From Deltaproteobacteria bacterium RBG_13_61_14 (GTDB lineage Bacteria; RBG-13-61-14), in contig MGQK01000101.1 of NCBI GenBank assembly GCA_001797815.1, forward strand, positions 1 to 8,604: a stretch of DNA of 8,604 nucleotides, read 5' to 3'. Position 1 is the stretch's first letter; every line of letters starts with the position of its first letter. Shown one piece after another: positions 883 to 6,437 of the stretch. Made by a program: the position numbers and the translations under genes. The notes under the pieces are model-generated. The model ran no database searches. It saw only the letters and a program-made list of their open reading frames with translations, and was not told the origin of the DNA.

Positions 883-884
<2 letters not shown>
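853..884 (+). terminator. Possible weak terminator hairpins between convergent genes
   Basis: GCCGGC (853-858) and GCCGGC (864-869) can pair around the loop TAAGT, which contains the pbpC stop codon. An alternative hairpin pairs GCCGG (864-868) with TCGGC (876-880), including one G-U pair, and is followed directly by TTTT (881-884). The second form is the more terminator-like one for pbpC. The first could also form in the response-regulator transcript, downstream of its stop, but has no U-run on that strand. The stems are short, so this is a modest call. Confidence 0.35.
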
Positions 885-2253
<1,369 letters not shown>

Positions 2254-2325: not shown

Positions 2326-3951
2326 TTATCCCATCGGCTCCGGCAAATAGATGCGGAAGCTCGCGCCCTGGCCGGGCTCGCTTTGCACCTCGATCGCGCC
2401 ATGATGTTCCTCCACCACCCGCTTGACTATGCACAGGCCCAGGCCCACGCCGCCCCGCTTCCGGGTGAAGAACGGCTCGAACAGCCGCGCCCGCACCCCC
2501 GGCTCAAGGCCCGGCCCGTCGTCCGCGACCTCCAGCAAGATCCGGCCGGCTCCCCTCGTCGGCTGGCGTTCGCTTTTCACCCGGACCGTGCCTTTACCCC
2601 CGCACGCCTGGGCCGCGTTCAACAAGAGGTTGTAAAGCGCGCTTTCGAGCATGGCCGGATCGCCCAAGACCGTCAGCCCCTCAGGCAGGGAGAGCTCGAT
2701 CTTGAGCTCCGGGGTAAAGGCCGGGTTGAAGCGGAAGAGCGCCGCGGTCTGCTCGACCAGCCGGCGCAGGTTGACTTCCTCCCGCAGCGGGGCCGCGGGC
2801 CGGCTGAACTCCAAGAGGCTCTCCACCCGCTCGTCAATCTTCTTCACTTCCTCGGCGATGATAGCCAGGCCCTTGCGCATCAGCTCCGGGTCCGGAGGGT
2901 TTTTCATATCGGCCGAGAGGAACATCTGGGCGTAGCCTTTGATCGGGCCGAGGGGGTTGCGGATCTCGTGCGCGACCGCGGCGGCCATCTCGCCGAGCAC
3001 GGCCAGGCGCTCGACCTGCTGGAGGCGGAGCTGCATCTGTTCGAGCTCCTGCTCGTAGCGCTCGATCCTGCGGCGGTATTCGTATTTTTCCGGGAAGAAG
3101 GCGCGCTCGATGAAAGAGCGGACCTGGTCGCGGGCCGCGGCGATAAGCAGGGTGGAGAGCGCGGTGAGGGAGAGCACGATCAGGAACTGGGCGGGGGAGA
3201 AGTCCAGGCCGGGGATGCGGTCGAGGAGGAAGAGGAGGAGGGCGACGATGCCGCTGACCAGGACCAGGTAAGCGAGGTAGGCCATGCCTTCGTGGAGGAG
3301 TTCATCGGCCTGGACCCGGCCGGAGCGGAGGAAGGAATAGACGACCAGCTCGGCGCCTAAAACGACGGCCAGGCTGAGGTTGGAAGCCGGGAATTGGGGA
3401 AAGACCGGGTTCAAGGCGGCCTGGAGCAAGAGAGCCAGAAAAGGAAGGGCGGTCACCCAGAACTCGAACCGGACCTGGCGGAGCGGTTCCGGGTGCTCCG
3501 TTTTCCTGAGCAGATGGCGAAGGCCGAGGAAAAACGCCAGGTAGAAAAAGGCCAGATAGAGACCGACAACCGCCAGACCGATGATGTAGGCCTGGGATTC
3601 GGAGAGGCCGAGATTCTTCCAGGGGAAAATCCAGGCGGCAAAAGTGAAAGCGACCAGCAAGACCAAGACCGGCAGACGGCGGAAGCCGCGGCGAAGTTGG
3701 TAGCCTTCGGCCAGGTAATACTGATAGATGGCGGGGATGAGCAGGACGCCGAGCAGGGCCGACTTCAGCCAGGGGTCTTTGTCCGCGGACAAGAAGTAGC
3801 CGATGCCTACCGCGCACCAGATGCTGACCGCGAAACAAAGGGCGGAGAAAACCCGGGCCGAGACCTCGTGCCGGCGCCTTACCAGGACAAAGATGCCCAG
3901 GAGGAGGTTGATCTCCAGGGTCACCAGCAGGGGTATGAAGCGGAATTCCAT
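2326..3951 (-). CDS. Membrane sensor histidine kinase with N-terminal multi-TM sensor
   Basis: A 541-residue kinase. Roughly the first 275 residues are hydrophobic, with about eight or nine membrane segments (near 5-25, 33-54, 62-81, 93-110, 120-144, 165-182, 190-207, 224-243, 252-272). This resembles the 7TM-type sensor regions of some histidine kinases and leaves little room for a periplasmic domain. A short coiled linker rich in Glu, Gln and Arg (about 290-318) leads to the HisKA domain. The H-box is AHEIRNPLG with phospho-acceptor H328. The ATPase domain has N-box NLLLNAAQ (N445), G1 DDGPG (477-481), F-box FEPFF (491-495) and G2 GGVGLGL (500-506). No PAS, GAF or HAMP domain is evident. 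A TTG at 3975 is in frame, but it is part of the -12 box of the predicted sigma-54 promoter, so the ATG at 3951, preceded by GGCAGG, is preferred. The kinase probably phosphorylates the downstream regulator. PrsK-like kinases are comparable but normally carry a GAF domain, and no exosortase genes are seen here. Confidence 0.92.
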   Translation of the reverse strand: MEFRFIPLLVTLEINLLLGIFVLVRRRHEVSARVFSALCFAVSIWCAVGIGYFLSADKDPWLKSALLGVLLIPAIYQYYLAEGYQLRRGFRRLPVLVLLVAFTFAAWIFPWKNLGLSESQAYIIGLAVVGLYLAFFYLAFFLGLRHLLRKTEHPEPLRQVRFEFWVTALPFLALLLQAALNPVFPQFPASNLSLAVVLGAELVVYSFLRSGRVQADELLHEGMAYLAYLVLVSGIVALLLFLLDRIPGLDFSPAQFLIVLSLTALSTLLIAAARDQVRSFIERAFFPEKYEYRRRIERYEQELEQMQLRLQQVERLAVLGEMAAAVAHEIRNPLGPIKGYAQMFLSADMKNPPDPELMRKGLAIIAEEVKKIDERVESLLEFSRPAAPLREEVNLRRLVEQTAALFRFNPAFTPELKIELSLPEGLTVLGDPAMLESALYNLLLNAAQACGGKGTVRVKSERQPTRGAGRILLEVADDGPGLEPGVRARLFEPFFTRKRGGVGLGLCIVKRVVEEHHGAIEVQSEPGQGASFRIYLPEPMG

Positions 3952-3970
3952 GAGCCTGCCAGAAAAGATG

Positions 3971-3986
3971 AGCAATTTCGATGCCC
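3971..3986 (-). promoter_or_regulatory. Predicted sigma-54 promoter of the kinase-regulator operon
   Basis: Read on the minus strand, GGGCAT (3986-3981), N5, TTGCT (3975-3971) matches the sigma-54 consensus TGGCAC-N5-TTGCW. The GG and GC are exactly 10 bases apart. The predicted start is near 3960, which leaves a very short leader beginning at the GGCAGG ribosome site before the ATG at 3951. The boxes are the same GGCAT and TTGCT found upstream of the neighbouring protease gene. The first base of the -24 box is G rather than T. Confidence 0.6.
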
Positions 3987-4011
3987 CATTTTGATTTTTC
4001 TGTTATTTTCA

Positions 4012-4024
4012 TAACTAGCTGATT
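4012..4024 (-). promoter_or_regulatory. Possible IHF-type bend site
   Basis: On the minus strand AATCAGCTAGTTA matches the IHF consensus WATCAR-N4-TTR. It lies between the sigma-54 element (3971-3986) and the upstream dyad (4110-4127), where a bending protein is commonly used at sigma-54 promoters. The motif is short and the region AT-rich, and IHF itself may be absent from this lineage, so confidence is low. Confidence 0.25.
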
Positions 4025-4070
4025 TTGAAATATATTTATTTTGCGAACAAGAAATGGGCTGCGACAGAGT

Positions 4071-4107
4071 ATGTAAATTTTTACATATAATGAGATATTT
4101 TTACATA
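4071..4107. repeat. AT-rich palindrome and 11-bp direct repeat in kinase promoter region
   Basis: ATGTAAATTTTTACAT (4071-4086) is a palindrome with 7-bp arms and a TT centre. Its right part, ATTTTTACATA (4077-4087), recurs exactly at 4097-4107, a period of 20 bases or about two helical turns. The block sits between the predicted regulator dyad and the sigma-54 promoter of the kinase gene, within an intergenic stretch much richer in A and T than the genes around it. It may be an operator for another regulator or an intrinsically bent segment. No binding protein can be named. Confidence 0.45.
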
Positions 4108-4109
4108 GC

Positions 4110-4127
4110 TGGGTAATTTCTTGCCTA
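4110..4127. promoter_or_regulatory. Putative activator-binding dyad upstream of kinase operon
   Basis: TGGGTAATTTCTTGCCTA contains the dyad GGNAA-N4-TTNCC flanked by T and A. It aligns with the dyad at 5139-5156 in 12 of 18 positions, including every base of the symmetric half-sites except one. It is centred about 158 bases upstream of the predicted transcription start, a usual distance for enhancer sites of NtrC-class activators. Assigning it to the adjacent response regulator is inference. Confidence 0.45.
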
Positions 4128-4156
4128 GTATTGAAATCAGAGATATTAAGAAGCCT

Positions 4157-4987
4157 TTAGCTGAATATGATGATGCCATAGAACAGGCCGATCAGGGCAT
4201 GCAGGATGGCCGGCGCGGCGATGCCCTCGGTATGATCTCGCACCCAGCCGAAGATCAATCCCTGCAGACCGGTGATCGCGGCCGCGTGCCCGGCGAAGGT
4301 GAAATGGGACCAGCCGTCTTTTTCGCCGAAGGGATTGAAAAAGCCGAGCCCGTGGCCGAAGCCGAAGAGCGCGGCGGAGAGGAAGAGTCCCCAGCCGATG
4401 CGGGTGCCGCGGATGGTCCAGGGCCGGCCGAAGGCGGCATTGAGCCGGCCCTGGATGTAGCCCCGGAACATGACCTCCTCGCCCAGCCCGCAGAACACTA
4501 CCTCGAAGACCAGGGTCAGCGCCACGCCGATCAGGGTGATCCAGGTTTCGTTGACCGGCCAGGTTTTCGCGAACCATGCATCCGGCAGGTTGAGGCTGAG
4601 CTGGTAGCCTCCTACCTGGAGCAGGGTCCCGGCCAGGACCAGCCAGACCGCGGCCAGGATGACCGAGGCCGCGATCGCGAGCTGGATCGCCTCCGGCTCC
4701 CGCAACTGGCGGAGGCTGATCCCGTAGTCGCGGAGCCGCTGCCGGCGGAGCTTGATTAAAGCGATGGGGACGACTGCCATCAGGGCATGGGCGAAGAAGT
4801 CCCAGCCCACCAGCCGAAACTGGATCAAGGGGATGGGAGTCAGCACCAGGGACTTGATCAGGAAATAGAAGGCGGGCACCAAGAGCGTGACTTCGGCCAC
4901 GGCCGTTAGTTGCCGCCAGGGGGATCCTCTGGTCCCTTTTGTTTCATTCGCCATTGCATCCGTAAGCTGAAGCAGAGCCTCTTTCAT
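4157..4987 (-). CDS. CPBP-family (CAAX-type) intramembrane metalloprotease
   Basis: A 276-residue multi-spanning membrane protein. It has the CPBP/Abi family signatures: EEVMFRG (E170, E171, R175; the EExxxR motif), FGFGH (F208, H212; the FxxxH motif) and a third motif HALIG (H263). Relatives are Rce1-type intramembrane glutamate/metal-dependent proteases acting within the cytoplasmic membrane. Bacterial members have varied and mostly unknown substrates, and some give immunity to peptide toxins. In the third motif the family usually has Asn four residues after His; here it is Gly267, so that motif is not fully canonical, though the two main catalytic motifs are intact. Hydrophobic stretches lie near 29-50, 62-80, 100-121, 148-166, 196-214, 233-248 and 257-275. 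The ATG is preceded by AAGGGG at good spacing; a second in-frame Met at residue 12 is less likely. A sigma-54 type promoter lies about 60 bases upstream, and the kinase operon follows 205 bases downstream on the same strand. Proteolytic activity is inferred from the motifs. Confidence 0.88.
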   Translation of the reverse strand: MKEALLQLTDAMANETKGTRGSPWRQLTAVAEVTLLVPAFYFLIKSLVLTPIPLIQFRLVGWDFFAHALMAVVPIALIKLRRQRLRDYGISLRQLREPEAIQLAIAASVILAAVWLVLAGTLLQVGGYQLSLNLPDAWFAKTWPVNETWITLIGVALTLVFEVVFCGLGEEVMFRGYIQGRLNAAFGRPWTIRGTRIGWGLFLSAALFGFGHGLGFFNPFGEKDGWSHFTFAGHAAAITGLQGLIFGWVRDHTEGIAAPAILHALIGLFYGIIIFS

Positions 4988-5046
4988 TTTCCACCCCTTC
5001 TTTAGATAGCGGGAAGTTTTCTCAAGTCCATTTGCCTCTTCAGTTT

Positions 5047-5062
5047 AGCAAGTGAGATGCCA
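5047..5062 (-). promoter_or_regulatory. Predicted sigma-54 promoter of the CPBP protease gene
   Basis: Read on the minus strand, TGGCAT (5062-5057), N5 (CTCAC), TTGCT (5051-5047) matches the sigma-54 consensus TGGCAC-N5-TTGCW at all but one position, with the invariant GG and GC 10 bases apart. The predicted start is near 5036, giving a leader of about 49 bases before the ATG at 4987. The element is intergenic and correctly oriented toward a gene beside a sigma-54 activator gene, which makes a chance match less likely. Confidence 0.7.
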
Positions 5063-5138
5063 AGCCAGTGAAATGACCTAATGCCCCGAGAATCCGGGCC
5101 TTTTTCCAGTCCGGGTGCCGCCGGCGCCTTCAAAGGAA

Positions 5139-5156
5139 TGGGAAAGCCCTTACCCA
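5139..5156. promoter_or_regulatory. Putative activator-binding dyad 1 upstream of protease gene
   Basis: TGGGAAAGCCCTTACCCA is an 18-bp dyad whose arms pair at all positions except the fifth on each side and the two central bases. It shares the TGGGNAA-N4-TTNCCYA pattern with 4110-4127 upstream of the kinase gene. Its centre is about 111 bases upstream of the predicted sigma-54 start, typical for an enhancer-binding protein. The adjacent NtrC-class regulator is the obvious candidate to bind it, by inference. Confidence 0.5.
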
Positions 5157-5200
5157 GGTAGGCACTGCCGGACATAACAAGCCCTCTCTAGCCGAGAACC

Positions 5201-5220
5201 CGGGAAAAGGGACTTGCCCG
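5201..5220. promoter_or_regulatory. Putative activator-binding dyad 2 upstream of protease gene
   Basis: The half-sites CGGGAAA (5201-5207) and CTTGCCCG (5213-5220) repeat the GGGNAA/TTNCCC pattern of the dyad at 5139-5156, but with a spacer two bases longer. The two centres are 63 bases apart, close to six helical turns, which would put them on the same face of the DNA. NtrC-class proteins often bind paired sites as oligomers. The longer spacer makes this copy weaker than the other two. Confidence 0.35.
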
Positions 5221-5252
5221 CTTGCTCCGGGCAGAGCCTTTTCTCAGAAATC

Positions 5253-5283
5253 TTGCCGCGGCCGGGGAAAATGATGTTAGAAT
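5253..5283 (+). promoter_or_regulatory. Possible sigma-70 type promoter of the acyltransferase gene
   Basis: TTGCCG (5253-5258) and TAGAAT (5278-5283) resemble -35 and -10 boxes with a 19-base spacer, slightly long. The predicted start falls near 5290, about 25 bases before the ATG at 5316. The -10 match is good and the -35 match partial. Confidence 0.35.
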
Positions 5284-5315
5284 AGCGTTTAGTCTTCCCA
5301 GGAAAGGAACAAGAC

Positions 5316-6437
5316 ATGATCATGACCGTGCGCCGCGTCGAGTCGGCCGGTGACCTCAAGACCTTCCTCCGCCTGCCCTGGAAGATTTACTCCAATGACC
5401 GGAACTGGGTGCCGCCCCTGCTCTGGGACTTCTCTCGCAAGCTCGATAAAAGCCATAACCCCTACTTCCAGCACGCGGAAGCCGAATATTTTCTGGCCTT
5501 TCGGGGCGACGAGGCGGTCGGCCGGATCACCGCCCAGAAGGACAAGAACTATGAGGCGCATTGGAAAGAAAAGGTCGGACACTTCGGGTTCTTCGAATGC
5601 GCGGACGACCCGGCCGCGGCCCAGGCCCTGTTGGAAGCCGGCTGCGCCTGGCTCAAGGGCAAAGGCTGCATCAAGGCCCAGGGGCCGTTCAACCCCAACG
5701 TCAACGACGAGTGCGGGCTGTTGATCGCCGGCTTTGACACCCCGCCCATGTTCCTGATGACCCACAACCCGCCTTATTATCAAAAGCTCCTTGAGGGCCA
5801 GGGCTTCGCCAAGGCCATGGACCTCCTGGCTTATCGGCTCGACGCCGTGGCCGAGGCGCCGCCCGACGTGGCTAAATACGCCGAGACGATCCGGCACAAG
5901 GAAGGCATCACCGTCCGCCAGTGGGACCTGGGCCGGTTCGAGCGGGAGATGGAACTGTTCCGCGAGGTTTACAACTCGGCCTGGGAGCGGAACTGGGGCA
6001 TGGTCAAGCTCACCGACGCCGAGCTCAAGGCCCACACCGTCGAGCTCCGGACCTTAGTCTGGCCCGAACTGGCTTTCTTTGCGGAGATCGAAGGCAAGGT
6101 CATGGGCGCTTCCCTCTCGCTCCCCAACTACAATGAGGTGATCATCAAGCTCAACGGCCGCATCTTCCCCTTGGGCGCGCTCCGCATCGGCCTGGCCCGC
6201 CTGCGCAAGAGCCTGAAGAGTTGCCGGGTCTTTGCCCTGGGCGTCAAGCAGGAATATCGCCGCTCCGGCGTGGGCGCGGTCTTTTACTACGACACCCTGA
6301 TGGCGGCCAAGCGCCTGGGCCTCCAGTGGGGCGAGATGAGCTGGATCCTGGAAAACAATGTGGCGATGAACAAGGCCATCCAGCACATGGGCGGCAGGGT
6401 TTACAAGACCTATCGCATTTTCGAGAAGGCTTTATGA
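5316..6437 (+). CDS. GNAT-fold N-acyltransferase, YghO-like group
   Basis: A 373-residue soluble-looking protein with two GNAT-like halves. The N-terminal part has the segment FLRLPWKIYSNDRNWVPPL (18-36), then FFQHAEAE-like PYFQHAEAEYFLAF (49-62), GHFGFFEC (88-95), GPFNPNVNDECGLL (123-136) and MTHNPPYY (148-155). I associate this pattern with the YghO-like family, often annotated simply as GNAT or hypothetical. The C-terminal half has a recognisable acyl-CoA site, VFALGVKQEYRRSGVG (305-320), with the RRxGxG loop, and a final motif ENNVAMNKAIQHMGGRVYK (346-364). From memory, bacterial ceramide synthases of the Caulobacter type belong to GNAT-like proteins of this general kind, so an N-acyltransferase acting on a lipid amine is possible but unproved. 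No serine palmitoyltransferase gene is in the window. An AGGAAAGGA ribosome site seven bases upstream supports the ATG at 5316 over the one at 5322. It is divergent from the protease gene and followed by a hairpin repeat. Confidence 0.8.
   Translation: MIMTVRRVESAGDLKTFLRLPWKIYSNDRNWVPPLLWDFSRKLDKSHNPYFQHAEAEYFLAFRGDEAVGRITAQKDKNYEAHWKEKVGHFGFFECADDPAAAQALLEAGCAWLKGKGCIKAQGPFNPNVNDECGLLIAGFDTPPMFLMTHNPPYYQKLLEGQGFAKAMDLLAYRLDAVAEAPPDVAKYAETIRHKEGITVRQWDLGRFEREMELFREVYNSAWERNWGMVKLTDAELKAHTVELRTLVWPELAFFAEIEGKVMGASLSLPNYNEVIIKLNGRIFPLGALRIGLARLRKSLKSCRVFALGVKQEYRRSGVGAVFYYDTLMAAKRLGLQWGEMSWILENNVAMNKAIQHMGGRVYKTYRIFEKAL

Follow-up and report, generated by a model that had tools for sequence, protein, structure and literature searches.

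For the window analysed here, which is the entire contig C101 (8604 bases) of a 4.74 Mb draft genome, the question is whether a membrane histidine kinase and its NtrC-class regulator control, through sigma-54, both their own operon and an adjoining gene encoding an intramembrane protease. The initial annotation had described this arrangement as a self-contained circuit. We consider it likely that the locus belongs to a small sigma-54 regulon driven by its own two-component system, comprising that system's operon, the CPBP protease and a pilin-like protein encoded on C80. The circuit is thus probably real yet not self-contained, with a regulon of at least three transcription units. The relatives compared were two genomes of the same order (the order-mates) and further genomes sharing only the domain with the source. 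The features of the window are as follows.

883-2253, minus strand: NtrC-class response regulator P0003, 456 aa, with receiver, AAA+ domain carrying GAFTGA, and HTH_8
2326-3951, minus strand: membrane histidine kinase, 541 aa, about eight predicted membrane helices followed by HisKA and HATPase_c
3971-3986, minus strand: predicted sigma-54 site of the kinase-regulator operon, GGGCATCGAAATTGCT, predicted start near 3960
4070-4087, strand not applicable: perfect AT-rich palindrome, TATGTAAATTTTTACATA, upstream of the kinase only
4110-4127, minus strand: kinase copy of the shared dyad, TAGGCAAGAAATTACCCA, candidate regulator binding site
4157-4987, minus strand: CPBP (Rce1-like) intramembrane protease P0001, 276 aa, assigned from Pfam and residues
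5047-5062, minus strand: predicted sigma-54 site of the protease, TGGCATCTCACTTGCT, predicted start near 5036
5139-5156, plus strand: protease copy of the shared dyad, TGGGAAAGCCCTTACCCA, candidate regulator binding site
5316 (start), divergent: gene for a GNAT-type acetyltransferase, assigned from Pfam

The Pfam matches and coordinates confirmed that the protease, kinase and regulator genes lie together on the minus strand, as had been proposed. The kinase matched HisKA and HATPase_c, and no Pfam family was matched by its sensor half. P0003 matched Response_reg, Sigma54_activat and HTH_8, which places it in the NtrC class; the GAFTGA loop reported earlier is present, together with a Walker A motif (GESGTGKE). 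One clear copy of rpoN was found in the genome, which also encodes at least 12 further NtrC-class proteins. The recognition helix of P0003 is unlike that of the regulator paralogue C16, a protein with similar proteins in both order-mates and with a helix that we take to be associated with PilR.

To our knowledge, most bacterial CPBP proteases have no assigned function. P0001 is an Rce1-like member of PF02517 (55.1 bits, cut-off 22.4), and in its active-site motifs (EExxxR, FxxxH, HxxxN) the residues E170, E171, R175, F208, H212 and H263 are kept, with Gly at the Asn position. Since the Asn after the last His is counted among the critical residues in other CPBP proteases (PMC11980579), the putative activity of P0001 is treated with caution. 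The protein shares the CPBP family and the Glu-Glu and His residues with the myxosortase MrtX and other CPBP proteases (PMC11980579), but differs from them in lacking the usual Asn and in scoring under the cut-off of the myxosortase core model NF040914 (Mrt_core; 64.7 against 100). Among solved structures, nothing above chance level was matched to P0001 by sequence. The other CPBP protein found in the genome by similarity, a paralogue of P0001 on C17 (L053, C17:20831-21142), scores 124.5 with Mrt_core, above the cut-off of 100, so that a C-terminal sorting system may exist in the source lineage.

The sigma-54 promoters claimed ahead of the protease and the kinase were both recovered, and among all GG-N10-GC sites of the window TGGCATCTCACTTGCT and GGGCATCGAAATTGCT take the top two ranks. 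The protease promoter (core GGCATCTCACTTGCT at 5061-5047, extended at 5062-5047) is a perfect match with normal geometry, its predicted start lying 49 nt ahead of the ATG. The kinase promoter (core GGCATCGAAATTGCT at 3985-3971, extended at 3986-3971) has one mismatch, with no T at -26, and its geometry is tight, leaving a leader of only 9 nt that begins with GGCAGG; so short a distance between promoter and gene is unique to the kinase among the confident sigma-54 sites of the genome. Of the two, the kinase promoter is the weaker claim. No sigma-70-type site was found on the minus strand of 3900-5330. Between protease and kinase no clear terminator was found, so read-through from the former into the latter is possible.

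Across the genome, the pattern GGCAYN5TTGCW gave 34 matches against 3 for the reversed control pattern, and its intergenic matches sit before, among others, glnA, pilin genes, a gene for an ECF sigma factor and genes for activators. This enrichment, together with such typical downstream genes, indicates that the genome has genuine promoters of this type. About one third of all matches lie inside long reading frames, and matches within genes are mostly noise. On C99, one sigma-54 site recurs unchanged, near flanks included (TTTGCTCTGGCATAGCGTTTGCTCCTTC), at a distance of 5.4 kb (L039 C99:35291 and L040 C99:40738), which suggests a duplicated promoter.

Matching dyads upstream of both promoters had also been reported, and this claim stood in part. 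The most conspicuous palindrome of the window, TATGTAAATTTTTACATA, was rejected as a shared operator; it is absent at the protease and has no close genomic copy, none being found with fewer than two mismatches. When palindromy and similarity were sought jointly in both gaps, the best element was a different dyad, TRGGNAAGNNNTTACCCA, of which the protease and kinase copies are identical at 13 of 18 positions. The joint palindrome-plus-identity score was reached by 2, 0, 8 and 3 of 300 dinucleotide shuffles in four arm and spacer geometries. The fifth geometry, with 8-bp arms and no spacer, favoured another pair of segments, whose score was attained by 27 of 300 shuffles. The kinase copy, in which 5 of 8 pairs match, is the least palindromic, and its orientation is reversed. 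Two other repeats were observed upstream of the protease: a 13-nt direct repeat (CCGAGAATCCGGG and CCGAGAACCCGGG, 12 of 13 identical, at 5086-5098 and 5192-5204, 106 nt apart), and, in the gap that separates the divergent protease and acetyltransferase genes, an imperfect inverted repeat at 5206-5242 with a perfect core TGCCCG-N7-CGGGCA and AAAAGG/CCTTTT-like ends.

To look beyond the window, the genome was searched with TRGGNAAGNNNTTACCCA, the pattern derived from the kinase and protease copies. Besides these two founders, four places with at most one mismatch were found. The copies on C117, C12 and C63 were rejected, being located within genes (alpha-2-macroglobulin-like, pilO-like and a transposase neighbour, as named from translations) and having no sigma-54 site in range. 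The fourth, C80:42263-42280, is intergenic and is followed, after 103 nt, by a perfect sigma-54 promoter, TGGCATAAGGCTTGCT. The intergenic copies with at most one mismatch are therefore those of the kinase, the protease and C80 only, and all lie 100-146 nt upstream of a -12 element (centre to element, 146 nt for the kinase, 100 for the protease and 116 for C80), a spacing that is normal for enhancers. The protease and C80 sites agree at 21 of 26 bases, and the chance of the C80 coincidence is about 0.006 (32 other strict sites x 220 nt / 4.74 Mb x 4 places). The combination of a -24/-12 promoter and a shared upstream dyad that marks a sigma-54 regulon was thus found, and the third dyad and promoter before the C80 gene contradict the description of the circuit as self-contained. 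At the two-mismatch dyad sites examined, no sigma-54 site with at most one mismatch was in range. A looser composite of dyad and promoter gave, besides the protease, two genome matches, both rejected as lying within long reading frames.

The C80 target gene encodes a pilin-like protein of 196 residues with two predicted membrane helices, whose C-terminal part is 40% identical to another protein of the genome, a pilin with the prepilin motif. The C80 protein itself is without this motif, and its Pfam pilin score is 27.1 against a cut-off of 28.5. Relatives are encoded in the order-mates, and the start of one of them, in G002, coincides with a perfect sigma-54 site. No dyad with at most one mismatch was found before the pilin-like genes of the order-mates, G002 included; its absence at the G002 relative is consistent with the lack of clear orthologues of the kinase or regulator in the two order-mates. 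Pilin-like C-terminal domains on non-pilin anchors, without the G/FTLIE motif, were observed at L078:1664-2254 (C80:42426-43016), L131 and L138. They occur in the source genome and both order-mates, and such membrane-tethered pilin-like proteins look, by sequence, like a family.

As a separate observation, a pair of clpX- and lon-like genes on C100 is directly followed by a gene for an ECF sigma factor (L116:4152-4766). The promoter of this gene matches the strict sigma-54 pattern, and a dyad with three mismatches lies 139 nt upstream of that promoter. A sigma cascade via this gene is possible; such weak dyads number three among about 30 sigma-54 sites, near chance expectation.

The conservation searches covered 385 other genomes for the sensor domain of the kinase and recovered no orthologue of it. 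Scans of GTDB contigs, which were seeded by short exact peptides and detect close relatives only, gave no relatives of the protease, and for the kinase these scans and plasmids gave kinase cores alone. No two-component genes were found beside those CPBP relatives elsewhere whose flanks were read (about 1.5 kb). The circuit may be confined to the source lineage, or its relatives may lie outside the genomes searched.

NtrC-type circuits that regulate themselves are common, and in function PrsK/PrsR and PilS/PilR come close as precedents; the novelty lies in the target set. The PrsK/PrsR system combines a membrane kinase, an NtrC-class regulator, sigma-54 promoters, an enhancer motif and a membrane sorting enzyme (PMC1569441), and a PEP-CTERM gene is RpoN-dependent (PMC9850573). 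The present locus resembles it (PMC1569441, PMC9850573) in the tandem multi-helix membrane kinase and NtrC-class regulator, in sigma-54 promoters with a shared enhancer motif and in a membrane-embedded processing enzyme. It differs in that the kinase and regulator score under the cut-offs of TIGR02916 (PrsK; 113.9 bits against 300) and TIGR02915 (PrsR; 370.1 against 502.6), in that the membrane enzyme is a CPBP protease, and in its dyad, TGGGNAAG-NN-CTTACCCA, whereas the PrsR motif ends with TTTACA. PilS/PilR controls pilin through sigma-54, and the likeness to it comprises the membrane kinase, the NtrC-class regulator, the pilin-type target and sigma-54 (PMC6058289). Here, in contrast, the pilin-like target is without the prepilin cleavage motif and a protease is co-regulated. 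In Desulfovibrio vulgaris, 21 sigma-54 response regulators had a found target; for 8 of them binding lay upstream of the regulator's own gene or operon, and for 7 at adjacent operons (PMC3333781). The autoregulated ones resemble the circuit proposed here in their own and adjacent targets and in palindromic sites near sigma-54 promoters; no CPBP protease target is noted in the passages of that survey considered. Since targets of this kind are usual for such regulators (PMC3333781), the layout was counted in favour of the circuit. Among titles and abstracts, no description of a pairing of sigma-54, CPBP protease and two-component system was found.

Several observations were counted against a regulon driven by its own two-component system, namely the missing T at -26 and short leader of the kinase promoter, the poor palindromy and reversed orientation of the kinase dyad, the presence of other NtrC-class regulators that could bind the dyad, and the failure to find an orthologous locus. 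In a rival explanation, which we regard as rather unlikely, the protease and C80 sigma-54 promoters are real and share another NtrC-class protein as activator, and the kinase-regulator pair is transcribed otherwise, from the protease promoter or another one, and controls something else. The number of further NtrC-class proteins would allow this, as would a kinase promoter that is the weakest of the three and the lack of a clear terminator behind the protease, but the kinase operon has its own copy of the dyad and its own sigma-54 site, both rare genome-wide.

We think it very unlikely that the pair is just the form that PilS/PilR or PrsK/PrsR takes in this lineage, with the protease an ordinary member of that known regulon. 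One target is indeed pilin-like, the kinase core and the regulator partly match the PrsK and PrsR models, and both known systems work via sigma-54 (PMC6058289, PMC1569441). Against this stand the shortfalls in both model scores and the genome, 95% complete, in which exosortase (PF09721) had no match. In addition, the helix that we associate with PilR belongs to C16 and not to P0003. Chance, by which both sites would be accidental and the protease and kinase promoters unrelated, is the most improbable of these explanations; the third of strict-pattern matches inside reading frames is probably accidental, but the two sites here are intergenic, correctly oriented and the best of the window, and the dyad common to them leads to the promoter on C80.

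In the favoured regulon, a signal would reach the membrane kinase, which would phosphorylate the adjacent P0003; phosphorylated P0003 would bind the dyad about 100-150 nt upstream of the promoters and drive sigma-54 polymerase at its own operon, giving positive feedback, and would also activate the adjoining CPBP protease gene and the C80 pilin-like gene. The genes, the predicted promoters and the shared operator-like dyads are present at the level of the sequence, and binding to the dyad and activation by phosphorylation would be expected of P0003 from its family. The proposal that the system activates itself and the protease is supported by the regulator class, rpoN and the shared promoters and dyads, but that P0003, rather than another NtrC-class protein, is the dyad binder and activator is what we infer, as is the direction of control. 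As its output, the system would probably remodel proteins of the inner membrane or the envelope, pilin-like ones perhaps among them; the role in membrane or envelope quality control suggested at first gained no direct support.

A bolder extension, which we consider improbable, is that the CPBP protease has the co-regulated pilin-like protein as its substrate and cuts it within the second membrane helix or close to it. If true, pilin-like proteins without a prepilin peptidase site would be matured or released by a pathway that sigma-54 induces. The placement of a CPBP protease in a small regulon with a defined candidate operator, alongside a pilin-like membrane protein as a further target, provides it with a candidate partner and a candidate signalling pathway, and an operator pattern taken from one window recovers an unlinked putative regulon member in an uncultivated lineage.
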